Positions 1 through 7,634 of a stretch of DNA of 64,000 nucleotides are shown piece after piece. Position 1 is the first letter of the stretch; each line of letters begins with the position of its first letter. The notes under the pieces are model-generated. The model worked only from the letters and a program-made list of their open reading frames with translations, did not search any database and had not been told where the DNA came from. A program made the position numbers and the translations under genes. The DNA is from Bacteroidota bacterium (lineage in GTDB: Bacteria; Bacteroidota; Bacteroidia; Bacteroidales; UBA12077), in NCBI GenBank assembly GCA_020444275.1, contig JAHLLG010000001.1, forward strand, positions 124,001 through 188,000, written 5' to 3'.

Positions 1-124
1 TAAATGCTTTGGTAATCTGGTGCGTTATTTCACCTTCATATACCAAAGTAATTTCGTGTGCTTTCATAGATCTGTAAAAATCATAAACAAATTCCAGAAA
101 GCCTTTTACATTACTTTTATCCAT
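1..124 (-). CDS. SiaB-like protein, N-terminal fragment cut by window edge
   Basis: The first 41 codons of a gene reading off the left edge. The start is the ATG at 124, 37 bases after the stop of the SpoIIE phosphatase gene, so it looks like the next gene of the same operon. The visible protein begins MDKSNVKGFLEFVYDFYRSM and continues with a short strand-like segment, ITLVYEGEITHQI. A helix followed by L-Y-x-G-x-I/F-x-x-x-I resembles the N-terminus of SiaB-family (DUF6272) proteins, which in Pseudomonas phosphorylate SiaC opposite a SpoIIE-type phosphatase, SiaA. The partner phosphatase next door supports this reading. Only 41 residues are seen, so the family call is an inference from motif shape and context. 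Confidence 0.55.
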   Translation of the reverse strand, partial: MDKSNVKGFLEFVYDFYRSMKAHEITLVYEGEITHQITKAF

Positions 125-161
125 AGGTTGTAAAATTAATATTTATTAAAATAATAAAAAA

Positions 162-2771
162 TTAAAATTCTATTCCAATTAATAACACATCATCGATCTG
201 TTTGGTTTTACCTTTCCAATTTTTAAAGTCGTTTGAAAACAGACTTGAAAACTGTTGCATTGATAAATCTTTATTTTCGGTAATGTGCGCTCTTATTCGT
301 TTAGGAGAATATTTTCTTCCTTCAGGACCACCTACTTGGTCAGGTAATCCATCGGAGAAAATAAATATTTTATCTCCCTTTTTAATTTCCAGTGTATGAT
401 TTATAAAATCTTTTTCTGGTTTTTTCCTGTGAGGTATTCCTCCAATTGCTTTTCGGTTTCCTTTATATTCTAATAATTCACCATCTCTTAAAAGATAAAG
501 CGGCCTGTGTGCTCCTGCATACTGTAATTCTTTTTTCTTAAGATTTATTCTGCAGAAGGCAATGTCCATACCATCGCGTGCATCGGCGTCAATTCTGTCT
601 TGTTTTAATGTTGTTCGAACACCAAAATGTAATTTATCCAAAATTTGTCCTGCTGTATAGTTTACATCGTGATCGACAATATTGTTTAATTGAAAGTAAC
701 CAATAAAAGACAACAGTGCTCCGGGAACACCATGACCTGTACAATCCACAGCAGAAATATATAAAATGTCATCTTTCTTAAAAAACCAAGGAAAATCTCC
801 ACTAACAACATCTCGAGGCAAATAAAATATAAATGATTTTGGAAGATATTCTTGTATTATAGAGTTATTAGGTAAAATTGATGACTGAATTCTTTGGGCA
901 TAATTAATACTTTCACTAATCTTCTTGTTTTTATCTTTTATCTCCATTTCTATTTGTTTGGCTTCGGTAATATCGTGCCCGACAAATAAAACAGTTTCCA
1001 ATTCATTTTCGTTAAACTCGGGAATTGCATTAAAATTCATAATTCGCTCCCCAAGTTTCGCTGTAGGCATAGTAAGCTCTTCATTGAGCTTTTGATTTGT
1101 TTTGCGTATCCTTCTTATGGAATCTTTAAAAAAAGATACAAGCGTTTCTTCTACTTCTAATTCATCAATACGATTGTTAATAATATCTTTGGATTTAACT
1201 CCCAAATAATCGTTTACCATTGGATTGGCATAGAAGAACTGGCCTTTGGTATTCATTCGTAAGATCAGATCGGGACTGTTTTCAGAAAGAGATTGCATTT
1301 TACTTTTCATCCGTTCCTCTTTCTCAGCTCGCTTTCGTTCTGTTATATCTTGCGAATTAAGAATAATACCGCTAATTGCAGGGTCGTTTAATAAATTTCT
1401 ACCTGTTGTTTCAATGTGTATTTTCTTGCCATCTTTTTTAATGTAGGTGTACTGAATAGCCCGTGGTGTATGAGGATCTGCCAATAATTGTTCAAACATT
1501 TCTTTCATGGCAGCTTCACCTTTAGCCGTCAAACGATCCATATCTTTACCACTCATCATTTCTTCAGGAGTGTATCCAAGGATTTTAGTAACTGATGGAC
1601 TTTGGTATTTAAGTTTTAATTCCGAATCGTAAATTGAAATTACCTCTGATGCGTTTTCTAATAAGGAGTGTAATCGTTTTTGCGCATTTTCTACCTCTTT
1701 AATCTGAGTTTCAAGCTTTTTATTTGAAATCTCGAGTTCTTCCTGGGTAGCCCTCATCTCTTCCGCATTCTGACGTAGCTGCTCTTCGTTAGCTTTAAGC
1801 TCGGCAGTCATCTGCTGCGATTCCTGAAGAAGTTTCTCGGTTTTCTGATTCATTTTCAGATTATAGAGTGTACGGGCAATAATTTCACCTAATTCTTTTA
1901 GAAACTCTATAGTTAATTCTGAAAAATGGTCTTCAATGGAAGCAAACTCGATTATTCCCTGTAATTTTTCTTCAGTAATTAAAGGAACTATAAGGATACT
2001 TGCCGGTTTTTTATCGCCTAAAATCCCAGAGGTTATTGAGGCATAATCCTCGGGTATTTCAGTTCTGTAAACAATATCTTGTTCGTATGCACATTGTCCT
2101 ATTAATCCTTTACCAATGCTAAACTCTTGATCTACATATCGTTTTCGGTTATAAGCATAGGTTGCATAATTCGTAATTTTCTCGGTTTCTTCATTAAAGA
2201 TATAGAACGACCCCTGAATAACATCAATATATTTAATAAGTTCAACAAGTACTTCGTATGTAAGCTCTTCTATACTGTTGTGCATTCGAAGAATTCCTGA
2301 AACAAGATCTTTTCCTGCCGATATCCAATTTTGTTCTTTTTCCTTTTTGCTATTGGCTCTGAGGTTATCGCGCATTACAATTAAGGAGCGACCAATAATA
2401 TCGTCCTGATCTATGTTTTCATCCTGCTCATCATAAATTCCTTCTCCAATTTTCTTGGCAAATCGGGCGTTCTTATTAATATCCCGATCGCGTTGTTCAA
2501 TAATTTGTTCAAAAACAGCCTTATCTCTCTCTCTTTTTTTAATAGATAAATAAATTACGAAACCTACAATAAAAGGGAATATATCAATAATCCAATGTAC
2601 CGGATTTTCCGCATGAATAGTTCCAATAGACCCAAACGAGAAACTAAGATTGTTTGCAAAAATATCGATAATCCATGAAGCAAGTACCAATATAATGGCT
2701 ACCAATACACTTATTAGTAAATCATTATATGATATTGTACTGATATTATATTTCTGTTTTTTAACAGCCAT
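162..2771 (-). CDS. Membrane GAF-PAS-PAS-SpoIIE protein phosphatase
   Basis: An 869-residue sensor phosphatase. Two membrane helices lie near residues 17-39 and 58-77, then a charged linker, a GAF domain (about 155-305), a coiled coil (306-372), two PAS domains (373-480 and 493-605), the linker ISESINYAQRIQSSILP, and a PP2C/SpoIIE domain (634-869). Metal-binding positions look intact: SGDF (Asp659), DCTGHG (Asp676), FSDG (Asp807) and QIDD (860-861). Enzymes of this class dephosphorylate a Ser/Thr site on a partner, usually an STAS or SiaC-like antagonist, in response to sensed signals. It is the fifth gene of a tight operon with cheR, cheB and a GAF protein, and is followed by a SiaB-like gene. 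The coiled coil contains Glu/Gln pairs flanked by small residues, reminiscent of methyl-accepting helices. The ligand and target are unknown. Confidence 0.93.
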   Translation of the reverse strand: MAVKKQKYNISTISYNDLLISVLVAIILVLASWIIDIFANNLSFSFGSIGTIHAENPVHWIIDIFPFIVGFVIYLSIKKRERDKAVFEQIIEQRDRDINKNARFAKKIGEGIYDEQDENIDQDDIIGRSLIVMRDNLRANSKKEKEQNWISAGKDLVSGILRMHNSIEELTYEVLVELIKYIDVIQGSFYIFNEETEKITNYATYAYNRKRYVDQEFSIGKGLIGQCAYEQDIVYRTEIPEDYASITSGILGDKKPASILIVPLITEEKLQGIIEFASIEDHFSELTIEFLKELGEIIARTLYNLKMNQKTEKLLQESQQMTAELKANEEQLRQNAEEMRATQEELEISNKKLETQIKEVENAQKRLHSLLENASEVISIYDSELKLKYQSPSVTKILGYTPEEMMSGKDMDRLTAKGEAAMKEMFEQLLADPHTPRAIQYTYIKKDGKKIHIETTGRNLLNDPAISGIILNSQDITERKRAEKEERMKSKMQSLSENSPDLILRMNTKGQFFYANPMVNDYLGVKSKDIINNRIDELEVEETLVSFFKDSIRRIRKTNQKLNEELTMPTAKLGERIMNFNAIPEFNENELETVLFVGHDITEAKQIEMEIKDKNKKISESINYAQRIQSSILPNNSIIQEYLPKSFIFYLPRDVVSGDFPWFFKKDDILYISAVDCTGHGVPGALLSFIGYFQLNNIVDHDVNYTAGQILDKLHFGVRTTLKQDRIDADARDGMDIAFCRINLKKKELQYAGAHRPLYLLRDGELLEYKGNRKAIGGIPHRKKPEKDFINHTLEIKKGDKIFIFSDGLPDQVGGPEGRKYSPKRIRAHITENKDLSMQQFSSLFSNDFKNWKGKTKQIDDVLLIGIEF

Positions 2772-2782
2772 AGATCTTTAAA

Positions 2783-3556
2783 TTAATACTTTAACAGTTC
2801 GTTACCAATTTTTTCCGATATGGTTTGGAACAATTCTTTAAAGTTACCTTTAAATTCTTTAAAAGATGCCAGTTCAATTATTGCTACCGTAGTATTTTCA
2901 ATAACGACAGGAATAATGATTAAATGATTAGGAGAACTGCTTCCTAATCCTGATAGTATTGTAATATAATTTTCAGGAATCTCTTTTAAATTTAGCACTT
3001 TCTGATTTTTAGCCACTTGTCCCGATAAGGTTTCTCCAAGGGTAAAACTTTTTGGTTCTTCTTCACCAAAATAGGCATATTTACCGGTGATGTTAAACTC
3101 ATCGGAATCTTTTGCTTTAACAAAAAACAGCCCCTGAACGATATCAAATTCTTTTGCAATGTTTGATAAGATTTTTTCCGTGTATTTTGTTATATCGATT
3201 TTTGCATTATGCTTTGGGATGATTTTGCTTATATAATAATCGGCATCAAGTTTTTCTTCTTCACTATAATCTTCATCAAGTTTTTTTTCTTTTTTCTCAC
3301 CTTCCAAATCAAATGCATTTTGTTGTGAATACTTCTCATCGGAATTTTGTTTTGTTGAAAGCATTAATGTTATGATGAGAAGAGCTAAGCTTAACAAAAG
3401 GCTAAAGGTTAAAAGTACATACAACCCATTTTGTTCTGAGCCCAGGTTATAGGATACAGAAATATTTCTGACTTTGGCAAAAAGCATAAACACAACAAGT
3501 AAACTTGCCAGAAAAGCAATGATCGATAATATTTTTAATAGTGCATTTTTACTCAT
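2783..3556 (-). CDS. Two-helix membrane protein with a GAF domain
   Basis: A 257-residue protein with two membrane helices (about 8-28 and 47-66), a Glu/Lys-rich linker (about 67-120) and a C-terminal GAF domain (about 130-257). There is no output domain. The GAF closely resembles that of the downstream phosphatase: both carry an IVQG/VIQG-F segment, a G-x-x-L-x-GQ loop, an EIPE-x-Y-x-x-I-x-SG loop and an I-I-E-x-AS strand, which points to duplication. It sits 9 bases after cheB and 11 bases before the phosphatase gene. It could be a sensory partner forming mixed assemblies with the phosphatase, or a target for the CheR/CheB pair through its acidic linker; both ideas are inference. Confidence 0.85.
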   Translation of the reverse strand: MSKNALLKILSIIAFLASLLVVFMLFAKVRNISVSYNLGSEQNGLYVLLTFSLLLSLALLIITLMLSTKQNSDEKYSQQNAFDLEGEKKEKKLDEDYSEEEKLDADYYISKIIPKHNAKIDITKYTEKILSNIAKEFDIVQGLFFVKAKDSDEFNITGKYAYFGEEEPKSFTLGETLSGQVAKNQKVLNLKEIPENYITILSGLGSSSPNHLIIIPVVIENTTVAIIELASFKEFKGNFKELFQTISEKIGNELLKY

Positions 3557-3565
3557 CAGAAATAG

Positions 3566-4123
3566 TTATTTTAACTTTAATAAAAAATTAATGATCTGGT
3601 CTGTTGTAAAAATATGATCTACAGTTGTTAATTTTAAGGAAGCTTCGGTCATTGTTTTTACCTGACATTCGTTTGGGTCCTGAACAATGGCGAGTCCTCC
3701 TGCCTGTTTTAGCTTTTTTAGCCCGTAAGCTCCATCTCTGTTTGCTCCTGATAAAATAATGCCAATAAGCTTATCGCGATAAGCTTGTGTTGCTGTTTCG
3801 AAGGTTAAATCAATAGATGGCCTTGAATGATTAACCGGTTCTTCAGTGGATAAAGCTATACGTTTATTTAATTCGATATACATATGATAGTTGGCCGGAG
3901 CTAAGTATCCTTTCCCGGGTTTAATATTTTCTTTATCGTATGGTTCTAAAATCGGGATTGTCGATTTAATGGATAAAGCTTCGACAAAACCTGATCGTAC
4001 ATGTTTTAGTCTATGTAAGCTTAAAAGAACAGGTAAAGGAAAATTTTTAGGTAATGAACTTAATATTTTTGTTATCACCTGAAAACTACCTGCTGACCCT
4101 CCGATTACAACTGCTTTATACAT
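3566..4123 (-). CDS. cheB: CheB-type protein-glutamate methylesterase, no receiver domain
   Basis: A 185-residue protein that is only the CheB catalytic domain. The expected triad is visible: Ser10 in GGSAGS, His37 in LLSLHRLKH and Asp130 in LSGANRDGA. Family members hydrolyse methyl-glutamate esters or deamidate glutamine on chemoreceptor helices. There is no N-terminal response-regulator domain, so control by CheA phosphorylation is not expected. It lies 5 bases after the second cheR-like gene. With no receptor or CheA in view, its likely substrates are the coiled-coil sensors in the same operon, which is inference. Confidence 0.9.
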   Translation of the reverse strand: MYKAVVIGGSAGSFQVITKILSSLPKNFPLPVLLSLHRLKHVRSGFVEALSIKSTIPILEPYDKENIKPGKGYLAPANYHMYIELNKRIALSTEEPVNHSRPSIDLTFETATQAYRDKLIGIILSGANRDGAYGLKKLKQAGGLAIVQDPNECQVKTMTEASLKLTTVDHIFTTDQIINFLLKLK

Positions 4124-4128
4124 TCAAT

Positions 4129-4959
4129 TTATGCTAGTTTCTTTTTATATATACTTTCTTCTTTATTCACTAAAGTGAAATCTTTATCAGAATTCCAGTA
4201 ATCAATTTTTTCATTATTACCAATAATAAAATGACCACCAGGAACCAAGCTATTGTAAATAGTTTTTATATATCGCTCCTGCAAAATCTGATTATAATAA
4301 ATCATTTGATTACGGAACAACACTAATTTTATCCCTTTAGGATAATCATCAAATATAATATTTTGTTTGATAAATTTGGTATTATCAATCAAAGATGTAT
4401 CCCAATGCGATTTATCTCCTTCAAAAGTGTAGAAGTTTGAAAGTTCTCCACTGCTAAAAATACGTTTATAATTGGCATCATTAACTTCAATCTTTTTCGG
4501 ATCGAATAATCCTTTTTGTGTATTTTCAATATCCAGTTGGCTAATGCTCGAGGCAATTAGCTGAACATGTTTAAGCAGGTTAAGATCTTTCAGGATAATT
4601 GCGGTAGAAAACAGTTCTTCGCCTGACGAAACTTCGGGGAACCAAATTTTAAAAGTACCGGAATCTTTTATTAGTGTTGGGAAAAGTTCTTCTTTTAAAA
4701 CTCTCCATAACGAAGGATCTCTGAACATTTCGGTATTTTCAACGCATATTTCCTGAAGGAAAACTTCAAAGAATGCTTCATCCGATTCTATTCTGCCAAT
4801 AAATCCATCAGCATCTTTTAAATTATGTTTGATGATAAATTTTTCAACCCGGCGCTTAAAAAAAGTAAGTGCATAATTTTTAAAGTCATAATCATAAACA
4901 TCATGTAATGTTTTAATTATGTTACGTGTATCAACTATGCCTAACTCGTATCTATTCAT
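4129..4959 (-). CDS. Degenerate CheR paralogue, probably non-catalytic
   Basis: A 276-residue protein with the full CheR fold order: an N-terminal helical domain, the NTEMFRD segment (75-81) and a C-terminal methyltransferase-like domain. Compared with the paralogue upstream, the SAM-binding loop WHAGCSTGQE is replaced by WFPEVSSGEE (106-115), losing the key glycine, and the ribose-binding aspartate segment ASDLNTDAL is replaced by ASSISQLDI. DLILCRNVIIYF is altered to KLVLFRNQMIYY. The overall length and the RN-x-x-x-Y core are retained and the frame is clean, so it looks maintained rather than decayed. It may bind or regulate the active CheR or its substrate without methylating. The family call is firm; loss of activity is an inference from these changes. 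Confidence 0.85.
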   Translation of the reverse strand: MNRYELGIVDTRNIIKTLHDVYDYDFKNYALTFFKRRVEKFIIKHNLKDADGFIGRIESDEAFFEVFLQEICVENTEMFRDPSLWRVLKEELFPTLIKDSGTFKIWFPEVSSGEELFSTAIILKDLNLLKHVQLIASSISQLDIENTQKGLFDPKKIEVNDANYKRIFSSGELSNFYTFEGDKSHWDTSLIDNTKFIKQNIIFDDYPKGIKLVLFRNQMIYYNQILQERYIKTIYNSLVPGGHFIIGNNEKIDYWNSDKDFTLVNKEESIYKKKLA

Positions 4960-4979
4960 TGTTATTTAATTTTTCATCT

Positions 4980-5819
4980 CTATTTCTTGCGGTATGCTTG
5001 TCCTTTCTTTTCAAATTTTGATGTAATTTCCCCTAACATGGTTTCATGCATACCTAAAACTAAATACCCGTTGGTATAAAGATGTTCGTGAAATAGCTTA
5101 AATACTTTGTTTTGTAAACTATATTTAAAATAAATAATAACGTTTCTACACAATATTAAATCGAACTTGGCAAAATAGAGATTTCCTCCTTTTACCAAAT
5201 CATGTTGTCTGAATATCGGTTTCTGCCTCAAAAAATCGTTCATTTGAATAGAGTCAGTTACTTTATCGATTTTAAAATATTTGGAATAGGGAATATCATT
5301 ATATTCCTCGTAATTAAATGGATTTTCTTTAATTACTTTATCGAAATTGTCCAGATATCCAATGTTAAACCTGTATTTATAGTTTCCTTTTTTTGCGGCA
5401 TCCAGTGCATCGGTATTTAAATCGCTAGCAAAAATCTTGGCTTTTTCGAAAAGGCCAAGCTCGTTAAGCAGGATCATCATGGAATATACTTCCTGACCGG
5501 TTGAGCACCCTGCATGCCAGATGTTTATGTTTCTGTTTTCCGAAAATTTCGGGAGAATTCGGTATCGTAATGTTTGCCAAATCTGAGGATCACGAAAAAG
5601 TTCTGTGGTGTTTACTGTAATATCTTTAACAGTTTTTTCCAGAAATTCTTTATTTGTTTTTAATTTGTTGATTAAAGTAAGCAGATCAGAGTTGTTGTCG
5701 ATAAGTATTTTTTGCAAACGGCGTTTTAGTGACTTTTCAGAGTATTCACTAAAGTCGTAACCCGAAGTGTTTTTTATGGTGTTTACAAAAAATTGAACTT
5801 CTTGATCTGATAAAGTCAT
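4980..5819 (-). CDS. cheR: CheR-type protein-glutamate O-methyltransferase
   Basis: A 279-residue canonical CheR. It has NTTELFRD (70-77), the SAM-binding loop HAGCSTGQE (102-110), an acidic ASDLNTD segment (131-137) and CRNVIIYF (224-231). Enzymes of this family transfer methyl groups from SAM to glutamates of receptor coiled coils. The C-terminus ends shortly after the core domain, with no TPR tail. It is the first gene of the minus-strand operon, 20 bases before the degenerate paralogue. A possible promoter motif lies about 75 bases upstream. No chemoreceptor or CheA is in the window, so the substrate may be one of the operon's own sensor proteins. Confidence 0.93.
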   Translation of the reverse strand: MTLSDQEVQFFVNTIKNTSGYDFSEYSEKSLKRRLQKILIDNNSDLLTLINKLKTNKEFLEKTVKDITVNTTELFRDPQIWQTLRYRILPKFSENRNINIWHAGCSTGQEVYSMMILLNELGLFEKAKIFASDLNTDALDAAKKGNYKYRFNIGYLDNFDKVIKENPFNYEEYNDIPYSKYFKIDKVTDSIQMNDFLRQKPIFRQHDLVKGGNLYFAKFDLILCRNVIIYFKYSLQNKVFKLFHEHLYTNGYLVLGMHETMLGEITSKFEKKGQAYRKK

Positions 5820-5898: not shown

Positions 5899-5975
5899 GC
5901 TATTTAACTTATATTGAAAAAATTAGTTTTAGTAAAACTTTAAATTAATGTTTAAAATTGAATTGTTCTTCAAAT

Positions 5976-7634
5976 ATGAAAATTAATCAATCAAAGCCTA
6001 CTTTAGCAATCTATGGAATTAAAGATATAAAAAATTCTGGATTTCCAGTGTTTGTGCACGATCATAATCTGTCTTTTTTTGATGAAGGAAAGATAAAAAG
6101 ACATATACAGCTTGAAAGAATTACACGAAAAAAGTATGACAACTCACTTGATCAGGAACTTTACGCTCTGCTTAAATCTGAAAAGCTAATTCAAAAAGAT
6201 TTTGATCTGGTTTTTGTCGACAATGTAATTGGCAGGGCATTTATAAGTGCTGATGGAGAAGTTAGATTCGAGGGGGCTTTAAATAATGATTTGCAAATTG
6301 GGTTAGAAAAAGGAAAGTGCTGGTGGTATGGAAAAGAGCGGGAGGCCTATGTGTTAAATCACGAATTGGCTCATATTTACAGTTGTTTGCCCTTTTTTGG
6401 TAATTTTAAAGATAATAGTTTGTTGGTCCATTTTGACGGCGGTGCCAGCTTAAGTAATTTTTCTGCCTGGACTTATAAAAATGGTAAACTCGAAAAGCTC
6501 GAATACCATTGGGATTTAAAATATTTGTCATCCTTATTTAATGCGAATGCGTTAGTGTTTGCTATTATCGGAGCGAAAGAATTTGATCAGCATTCGGTTC
6601 CGGGAAAATTAATGGGATATGCATCATATGGCGAATATTCAGAAGAGTTAGAAAAATGGTTGGTTAGCAATAATTACTTTCAGGATATTTGGGCAAAAAA
6701 ATCGCTGTTTTTTGAAAGAGCCAGAACAGACTGGAATGAAGATTTAAAAAGTTTTGATCAAAACAGTAAGTTTCTGCAAGATATTGCAGCAACCTTTCAA
6801 TACATTTTTCAACGCGATTTTATTGTAAAGATTCAAGATTTAAGAAAAAGAACTGCTACAGAATATCTTTACCTGACAGGAGGCTCAGCCTTAAATATCC
6901 TGGCTAACTCCGAAATTGTAAATAAAGAAATATTCAAAAATGTGTTTATTCCGCCATGCACCAATGATGCAGGACTATCCATTGGTGCAGGAGCTTTTCT
7001 GGAGCAGATAAAGCACGGTAAAATTGAACTGCATAATCCATACCTAAACAATTGGGGATTGGATTCTTCAGATGTAGCTTATTCTAGTGATGATTTGAAC
7101 GAGGTTATTAGGTTATTACTGCAAGGAAAAGTAATTGGTGTGTGCAATGGTTTTGGAGAATCAGGTCCCAGAGCTTTGGGAAACAGAAGTATATTGGCCT
7201 TGGCAAATTCGAGAAAGTTGGCCAAAAAGGTTAGCGAAGAGCACAAAAAAAGAGAGTGGTACAGACCAGTAGCACCTATTATGCTTGAGAAAAATGCAAA
7301 ATATTTTACCGAATTGCAGCAAATTCACCATTTAAGTAGGTATATGTTGTTGGATTTTAAAGTACTAAGCGGCAAAAAAGATGAAATCGAAGGTGTTGTG
7401 CATGTTGATGGCACATCGCGAATTCAAACTATATTTCAACGCGATGATAATCCATTTATTTATGATCTGCTGGATACTTTAGATCGGGAGCATCAAGTTA
7501 AAGCATTAATTAATACATCATTTAATGTTAAAGGTGAACCCATTGTTCACACTCCGGAAGATGCTTTACACTCAGCTAAACATATGAAACTTGATGGAGT
7601 AGTAATTAACGGAAAACTACAACGGTTAAGTTAA
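5976..7634 (+). CDS. NodU/HypF-type carbamoyltransferase
   Basis: A 552-residue enzyme of the NodU/CmcH/YrdC-associated carbamoyltransferase family, which transfers a carbamoyl group from carbamoyl phosphate (through an adenylate) to a sugar or other small molecule. Visible hallmarks are NHELAHIYS, LVHFDGGASL, VPGKLMGYASYG, LYLTGGSALN, GESGPRALGNRS, RPVAPIML, VHVDGTSRIQT and LINTSFNVKGEPIV. The ATG at 5976 is preferred over an in-frame TTG at 5958 because it begins the conserved region more naturally. It is divergent from the cheR operon, and its stop codon overlaps that of the TorF-like gene on the other strand. No nodulation, antibiotic or sugar-pathway partner is nearby, so the acceptor is unknown. 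Confidence 0.9.
   Translation: MKINQSKPTLAIYGIKDIKNSGFPVFVHDHNLSFFDEGKIKRHIQLERITRKKYDNSLDQELYALLKSEKLIQKDFDLVFVDNVIGRAFISADGEVRFEGALNNDLQIGLEKGKCWWYGKEREAYVLNHELAHIYSCLPFFGNFKDNSLLVHFDGGASLSNFSAWTYKNGKLEKLEYHWDLKYLSSLFNANALVFAIIGAKEFDQHSVPGKLMGYASYGEYSEELEKWLVSNNYFQDIWAKKSLFFERARTDWNEDLKSFDQNSKFLQDIAATFQYIFQRDFIVKIQDLRKRTATEYLYLTGGSALNILANSEIVNKEIFKNVFIPPCTNDAGLSIGAGAFLEQIKHGKIELHNPYLNNWGLDSSDVAYSSDDLNEVIRLLLQGKVIGVCNGFGESGPRALGNRSILALANSRKLAKKVSEEHKKREWYRPVAPIMLEKNAKYFTELQQIHHLSRYMLLDFKVLSGKKDEIEGVVHVDGTSRIQTIFQRDDNPFIYDLLDTLDREHQVKALINTSFNVKGEPIVHTPEDALHSAKHMKLDGVVINGKLQRLS

Follow-up and report, generated by a model that had tools for sequence, protein, structure and literature searches.

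The 64,000-nucleotide window analysed here (positions 124001-188000 of contig C7 of genome G000, an assembly of 4.22 Mb that is 98.9% complete) opens inside an operon that joins chemotaxis-type adaptation enzymes to a serine/threonine (Ser/Thr) partner switch. The operon contains ten co-directional genes on the minus strand, extends past the left window edge, and encodes, in order, CheR1, CheR2, CheB, a membrane GAF protein (GAFtm), a SpoIIE receptor-phosphatase, SiaB, SiaC, an ABC exporter, a lipoprotein, and a small secreted protein (p149). The first gene, at 4980-5819, encodes CheR1 (279 amino acids (aa); Pfam CheR_N and CheR), a predicted glutamate O-methyltransferase. It is followed by CheR2 (276 aa, 4129-4959; Pfam CheR, 1.1e-23), a pseudo-methyltransferase with a CheR fold; CheB (185 aa, 3566-4123; Pfam CheB_methylest, 9.5e-49); GAFtm (257 aa, 2783-3556; a GAF_2 match of 2e-6, just below the Pfam cut-off); SpoIIE (869 aa, 162-2771; Pfam GAF, PAS, PAS, and SpoIIE); and SiaB (191 aa; PF19788/DUF6272, 3.7e-45), a HATPase-type Ser/Thr kinase whose gene starts at 124, occupies 1-124 of the window, and runs onward to C7:123549. 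The intergenic gaps from CheR1 to SiaB are 20, 5, 9, 11, and 37 bases. The first-pass annotation, made from the letters of the window, had described six co-directional minus-strand genes with gaps of 5-37 bases, all of which we confirmed, together with its receiver-less CheB, which consists of the methylesterase domain alone.

That annotation had also proposed looking to the left of the window for a SiaC/DUF1987-like gene, and SiaC is indeed present directly beyond SiaB (L009, 15154-15534; PF09345/DUF1987, 1.5e-42). It is followed in the same direction, still to the left of the window, by the genes for the ABC exporter (1020 aa, L009 12045-15107; TerB, ABC_tran, and ABC2_membrane), the lipoprotein (305 aa, L009 11052-11969), and p149 (149 aa, L009 10600-11049). 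SiaC matches 6kko at 1.2e-16, and its Asn67-Thr68 pair, which is the same in Pseudomonas aeruginosa SiaC, is retained in 104/104 sequences. In P. aeruginosa, Thr68 of SiaC is phosphorylated by SiaB and dephosphorylated by SiaA (PMC7647112; PMC8457831), and SiaABCD likewise places a PP2C/SpoIIE phosphatase, the SiaB kinase, and a SiaC with Thr68 in consecutive genes. The adjacency of the PP2C phosphatase, SiaB, and SiaC genes identifies the operon as a partner switch of the SiaABC type. It is not SiaABCD because the diguanylate cyclase SiaD is absent from it; an ABC exporter follows SiaC both here and in nearly all loci read, with the lipoprotein and the secreted protein also taking the place of SiaD in this operon. 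Unlike SiaABCD, it has a phosphatase with a GAF-coil-PAS-PAS arrangement, with CheR, a pseudo-CheR, and CheB upstream. In many members of the order Bacteroidales SiaB is present in more than one copy (as many as 15 were counted), and in genome G098 the region directly upstream of CheR1 encodes a SiaB-like protein of greater length (374 aa) together with a SiaC of its own (L230:1536-3040).

Residue conservation indicates that CheR1 and CheB are probably active enzymes. CheR1 matches Bacillus subtilis CheR (5ftw, 7.6e-27), and the Arg of its FRDP motif, the G-S-G-E residues of its GCSTGQE motif, the S-adenosylmethionine (SAM) Asp, and the CRN..Y motif are invariant in 85/85 orthologues. CheB matches the CheB catalytic domain 3sft, and its Ser-His-Asp triad is retained in 83-84 of 84 orthologues. 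At the position of Salmonella Asp154, which we take from Salmonella CheR to be the SAM-ribose Asp, none of the 82 CheR2 orthologues has Asp or Glu (S40, Y12, V10, C8, T4, G2, N2, A2, H1, Q1), and the glycine motif is lost as well. The earlier description of a degenerate second CheR therefore stands, and, because the SAM-ribose Asp is lost in 82/82, CheR2 is a conserved pseudo-methyltransferase. Elsewhere in the genome, a CheB-CheR fusion (L089:13695-16571; C7:1193695-1196571) has a coil in which EELQSSNEEL and EELQSTNEEL come close to the CheR consensus and may be a self-modification site of the fusion family.

The SpoIIE protein consists of a transmembrane segment, a HAMP-like linker (recognised by eye), GAF, a coil, two PAS domains, and the SpoIIE/PP2C domain. 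The six metal-site Asp residues of PP2C that we checked are retained in 96 of 97 orthologues, with a gap in the one other row. Between GAF and PAS, the coil reads RQNAEEMRATQEE and is near-invariant among relatives. Within it, EEMRAT (residues 337-342; codons at 1746-1763 of the minus strand, by translation) fits the strict consensus for sites modified by CheR, E-E-x-x-A-[S/T] (PMC1079850). SpoIIE is the only carrier of this consensus among the 44 window proteins of at least 200 aa (17,909 aa). A strict site arises in the shuffled coil with a chance of 2-4%, so one EExxAT motif alone is weak evidence. GAFtm has two transmembrane segments, predicted by eye, and its GAF domain is related to the one in SpoIIE; the GAFtm proteins of relatives are matched by a SpoIIE query in phmmer.

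Nearly every sequenced relative in the genus and family has the ten-gene order, which is also found in several further families of the order. The same order occurs in most of 80 SiaB loci, a collection of mostly uncultured Bacteroidales that includes GWA2_31_9b, GWF2_33_16, and GWB2_32_14. In another order of the class, the operon lacks CheR1 and runs CheR2-CheB-GAFtm-SpoIIE-SiaB-SiaC-ABC-lipoprotein-p149; the SpoIIE of that order is fronted by dCache-HAMP. Recurrence in dozens of genomes excludes a chance arrangement, and the gene-order conservation in relatives on which the first-pass annotation had staked its idea is upheld. Among 218 genomes of the order (requested completeness at least 90%), CheB of the type found in the CheR-CheB cassette of the operon was present in 71, all of which also have SiaB; in 44 genomes from 25 families the two genes are at most 8 kb apart, usually about 4.0 kb.

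The operon itself contains no methyl-accepting chemotaxis protein (MCP), CheW, or CheA, as had been claimed for it; this does not extend to the genome, which carries, in a separate cluster, CheA, CheW, several MCPs, a further CheR, a CheB with a receiver, and CheD (the CheA, CheD, and receiver labels derive from sequence together with CheW and CheB matches). The presence of CheA and receptors elsewhere had been named in advance as evidence against the idea, and it allows the reading that the cassette enzymes serve an ordinary MCP-CheA system and merely adjoin a SiaABC operon. Cassette and CheW also co-occur above chance (52 of the 71 cassette genomes). However, the chemosensory cluster has its own adaptation enzymes, so those of the operon form a second, separate set. 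Moreover, 19 cassette genomes from 13 families lack CheW and CheA, and in 12 of these the operon is linked; 16 CheW-positive genomes lack the cassette, whose CheB occurs only with SiaB (71/71). No MCP matches were found in G018, G042, or G038, all of which have the whole operon; in G018 (95% complete), which also lacks CheW, the sole CheB is that of the cassette. On the evidence of the 19 CheW-less genomes, chemotaxis was rejected as the purpose of the cassette, and we regard service to an MCP-CheA system as very improbable. The operon is not an MCP-CheA chemosensory system, but it may work like one.

Candidate partners for such a function are encoded outside the window. About ten proteins elsewhere in the genome contain the coil EEMRQNMEELQATQEE, the same coil as that of SpoIIE, three of them in tandem at C4:186-192 kb. 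Their Pfam domains are dCache, HAMP, 7TMR-DISM, GAF, and PAS, and no kinase, phosphatase, or MCP domain was found by Pfam in any of the ten. Nine have exactly one strict site, EELQAT, in the coil; the tenth, R10, has the coil without the strict site. G018, the genome without MCP or CheW, yielded nine coil matches below 1e-5. In many loci an extra gene between CheR1 and CheR2, absent from the operon studied here, encodes a TM-HAMP-GAF-coil-PAS-PAS sensor (TM, transmembrane) with no output domain.

These coil receptors track the cassette, not CheA. They were found in 63 of the 71 cassette genomes and in 5 of the 147 others; by family, in 35 of 39 with the cassette and 2 of 74 without it (the total of 113 families is taken from the highest family code encountered). 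The association held in CheW-negative genomes (12/19 with the cassette versus 3/131 without), in CheW-positive genomes (51/52 versus 2/16), and in SiaB-positive genomes (63/71 versus 4/19). Because the genomes share ancestry, the Fisher p-values for co-occurrence are descriptive. Across 393 genomes of the phylum, a strong cassette CheB was found in only three from outside the order, and these were also the only such genomes to have strong coil receptors. All three come from a single family of a different order and therefore count as one independent replicate. This distribution bears on whether EExxAT is a methylation site at all. It might instead mark the structural register of a signalling helix, with CheR and CheB tuning something else, as could be argued from the position of the motif within a conserved coil after GAF domains, from the shuffled-coil frequency given above, and from R10. 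A purely structural role, however, does not predict that the coil family should be nearly absent without the cassette, even in genomes with CheW, and we consider this explanation unlikely.

Our preferred interpretation, which we judge somewhat more probable than its alternatives taken together, is a chemosensory-like pathway that dispenses with CheA, CheW, and MCP signalling domains, in which stalks tuned by CheR1 and CheB would set the action of SpoIIE on SiaC and hence the exporter. The receptor-phosphatase SpoIIE and the output-less receptors, acting in trans, would share a GAF domain plus coiled-coil stalk. CheR1 would methylate the second Glu of EE(M/L)xAT in the stalk (Glu338 in SpoIIE), and the receiver-less CheB would demethylate it, with the catalytically dead CheR2 as a putative substrate or assembly partner. 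The state of the stalk would then govern PP2C activity on phosphorylated SiaC, SiaB would rephosphorylate Thr68, and SiaC would control the downstream exporter with its TerB/FHA-like ABC protein, lipoprotein, and secreted protein. A broader proposal, to which we give slightly less than even weight, is that these proteins form an adaptive sensory array of a class of its own, in which many output-less receptors (with dCache, 7TMR-DISM, and other inputs) on a methyl-accepting GAF-coil stalk, without CheA, CheW, or MCPs, would signal to the stalk-sharing SpoIIE and through SiaC to the exporter, with adaptation by CheR1, the pseudo-CheR, and the receiver-less CheB.

Several observations weigh against the preferred pathway. 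Of 77 linked loci, 10 have lost the SpoIIE site and 67 have kept it; among unlinked loci, it is kept in 3 and lost in 14. Strong as it is in the raw counts, this relation between site and linkage was rejected as independent evidence, as only four linkage changes occur on the tree and the relation is not phylogenetically significant. When a locus is not linked to the cassette, the genome mostly still encodes CheB elsewhere, and loss of CheR and CheB was accordingly discarded as the cause of the degraded SpoIIE sites. The link to the exporter is affected as well. Its N-terminus was modelled as TerB plus a beta domain (AlphaFold predicted local distance difference test (pLDDT), 87), and nearly all top Foldseek matches of the beta domain are FHA domains, with probabilities up to 1.00 and weak E-values of 0.009-0.5, none below 0.001. 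By eye, only an Asn-Gly pair is conserved in the alignment of the N-terminus; no GR...S phosphothreonine motif was seen, and no phosphothreonine pocket is obvious. Reading of phosphorylated SiaC by an exporter FHA domain was therefore kept only as an idea, the fold being suggestive and the pocket not evident. The lipoprotein gave a confident model with no PDB match (best E-value, 0.7), and assignment of its function by fold was abandoned.

The distribution of the receptors also contains exceptions. Four cassette-positive families lack coil receptors, and in G050, G187, and G203 CheR2 and CheB are encoded beside SiaB and SiaC without SpoIIE, with no coil receptors found; the Che enzymes thus stay with SiaBC even without SpoIIE or coil receptors. 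The operons of G187 and G203 (L228:8718-12000 and L229:8803-12761) are reduced to CheR1-CheR2-CheB-SiaB-SiaC, without GAFtm, SpoIIE, or the exporter, and G050 has CheR2-CheB beside SiaB-SiaC-ABC. An alternative is that CheR1, CheR2, and CheB have SiaB, SiaC, or some other partner as their direct target, or that CheR2 is a binding module, the coil receptors being a separate, co-inherited system. CheR targets other than receptors are known; Salmonella CheR, for example, methylates PhoP, at Arg112 in vitro (PMC8546571). However, these are only three of the 44 linked genomes, and the remaining 41 all have coil receptors. The strict CheR site, moreover, lies in SpoIIE and the receptors and in no other window protein of at least 200 aa. 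We therefore find this alternative unlikely. The absence of coil receptors from the three SpoIIE-less genomes agrees with receptors that need SpoIIE. The suggestion in the first-pass annotation that methylation-based adaptation feeds a phosphatase is accordingly strengthened by linkage in 25 families, by retention without CheA, CheW, or MCPs, and by strict sites in SpoIIE and the receptors; it is qualified by the three SpoIIE-less genomes and by a substrate that is predicted from sequence.

Comparison with known systems sets the operon apart. Canonical and alternative-function chemosensory systems (Wsp, Frz) share with it the CheR/CheB adaptation enzymes and dCache-TM-HAMP receptors with a coil bearing E-E-x-x-A-[S/T], whereas the operon lacks an MCP signalling domain, CheW, CheA, and CheY and persists in genomes without CheW and CheA. 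CheR and CheB beside hybrid histidine kinases and CheB-CheR-PAS fusions (L085, L086, L227, C7:1193719) similarly place a receiver-less CheB and a CheR next to a GAF/HAMP sensor that is not part of an MCP array; those loci, unlike ours, have a histidine kinase output with receivers, a single CheR, and no SpoIIE-SiaB-SiaC. Rv1747-PknF of Mycobacterium tuberculosis (PMC5549992; PMC3908365) resembles the distal part of the operon in having an ABC exporter with FHA domain(s) and an adjacent Ser/Thr kinase that controls it. Here, in contrast, the SiaB-type kinase would act on SiaC, and the exporter N-terminus has TerB and a degenerate FHA-like domain with no evident phosphopeptide pocket. In G042, the gene for a second TerB-type ABC exporter adjoins those of two large sensor-like proteins (L204:2-8243), one of which has a GAF domain and no recognised output domain; this may be a further receptor-exporter pairing.

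Methylation-based adaptation is a textbook feature of chemotaxis, where it is commonly assumed to require MCPs that are coupled to CheA. Our results point to a self-adjusting sensory pathway of a previously undescribed kind in a large, mostly uncultured group of Bacteroidales, and we found no earlier description of such a CheA-free methylation/SiaBC operon in the open-licence PMC literature. If adaptation enzymes and Ser/Thr partner switching do persist together without CheA, adaptation would be a portable module, the otherwise output-less receptors would have a likely role, and the SiaBC switch would have one outside cyclic di-GMP control; the pathway also names exact substrates and sites that can be tested, namely Glu338 of SpoIIE and EELQAT of the receptors.

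Two neighbouring genes were also noted. A carbamoyltransferase gene (window positions 5958-7634) is divergent from CheR1 and adjoins the operon in many family relatives. To the left of the window, at L009:1784-2554 (C7:109784-110554), lies a gene for a transposase of the repetitive extragenic palindrome (REP)-associated type, within which a segment of approximately 75 residues is repeated almost exactly in tandem (TANREHYFGEIVNS...LQCGSTT twice).

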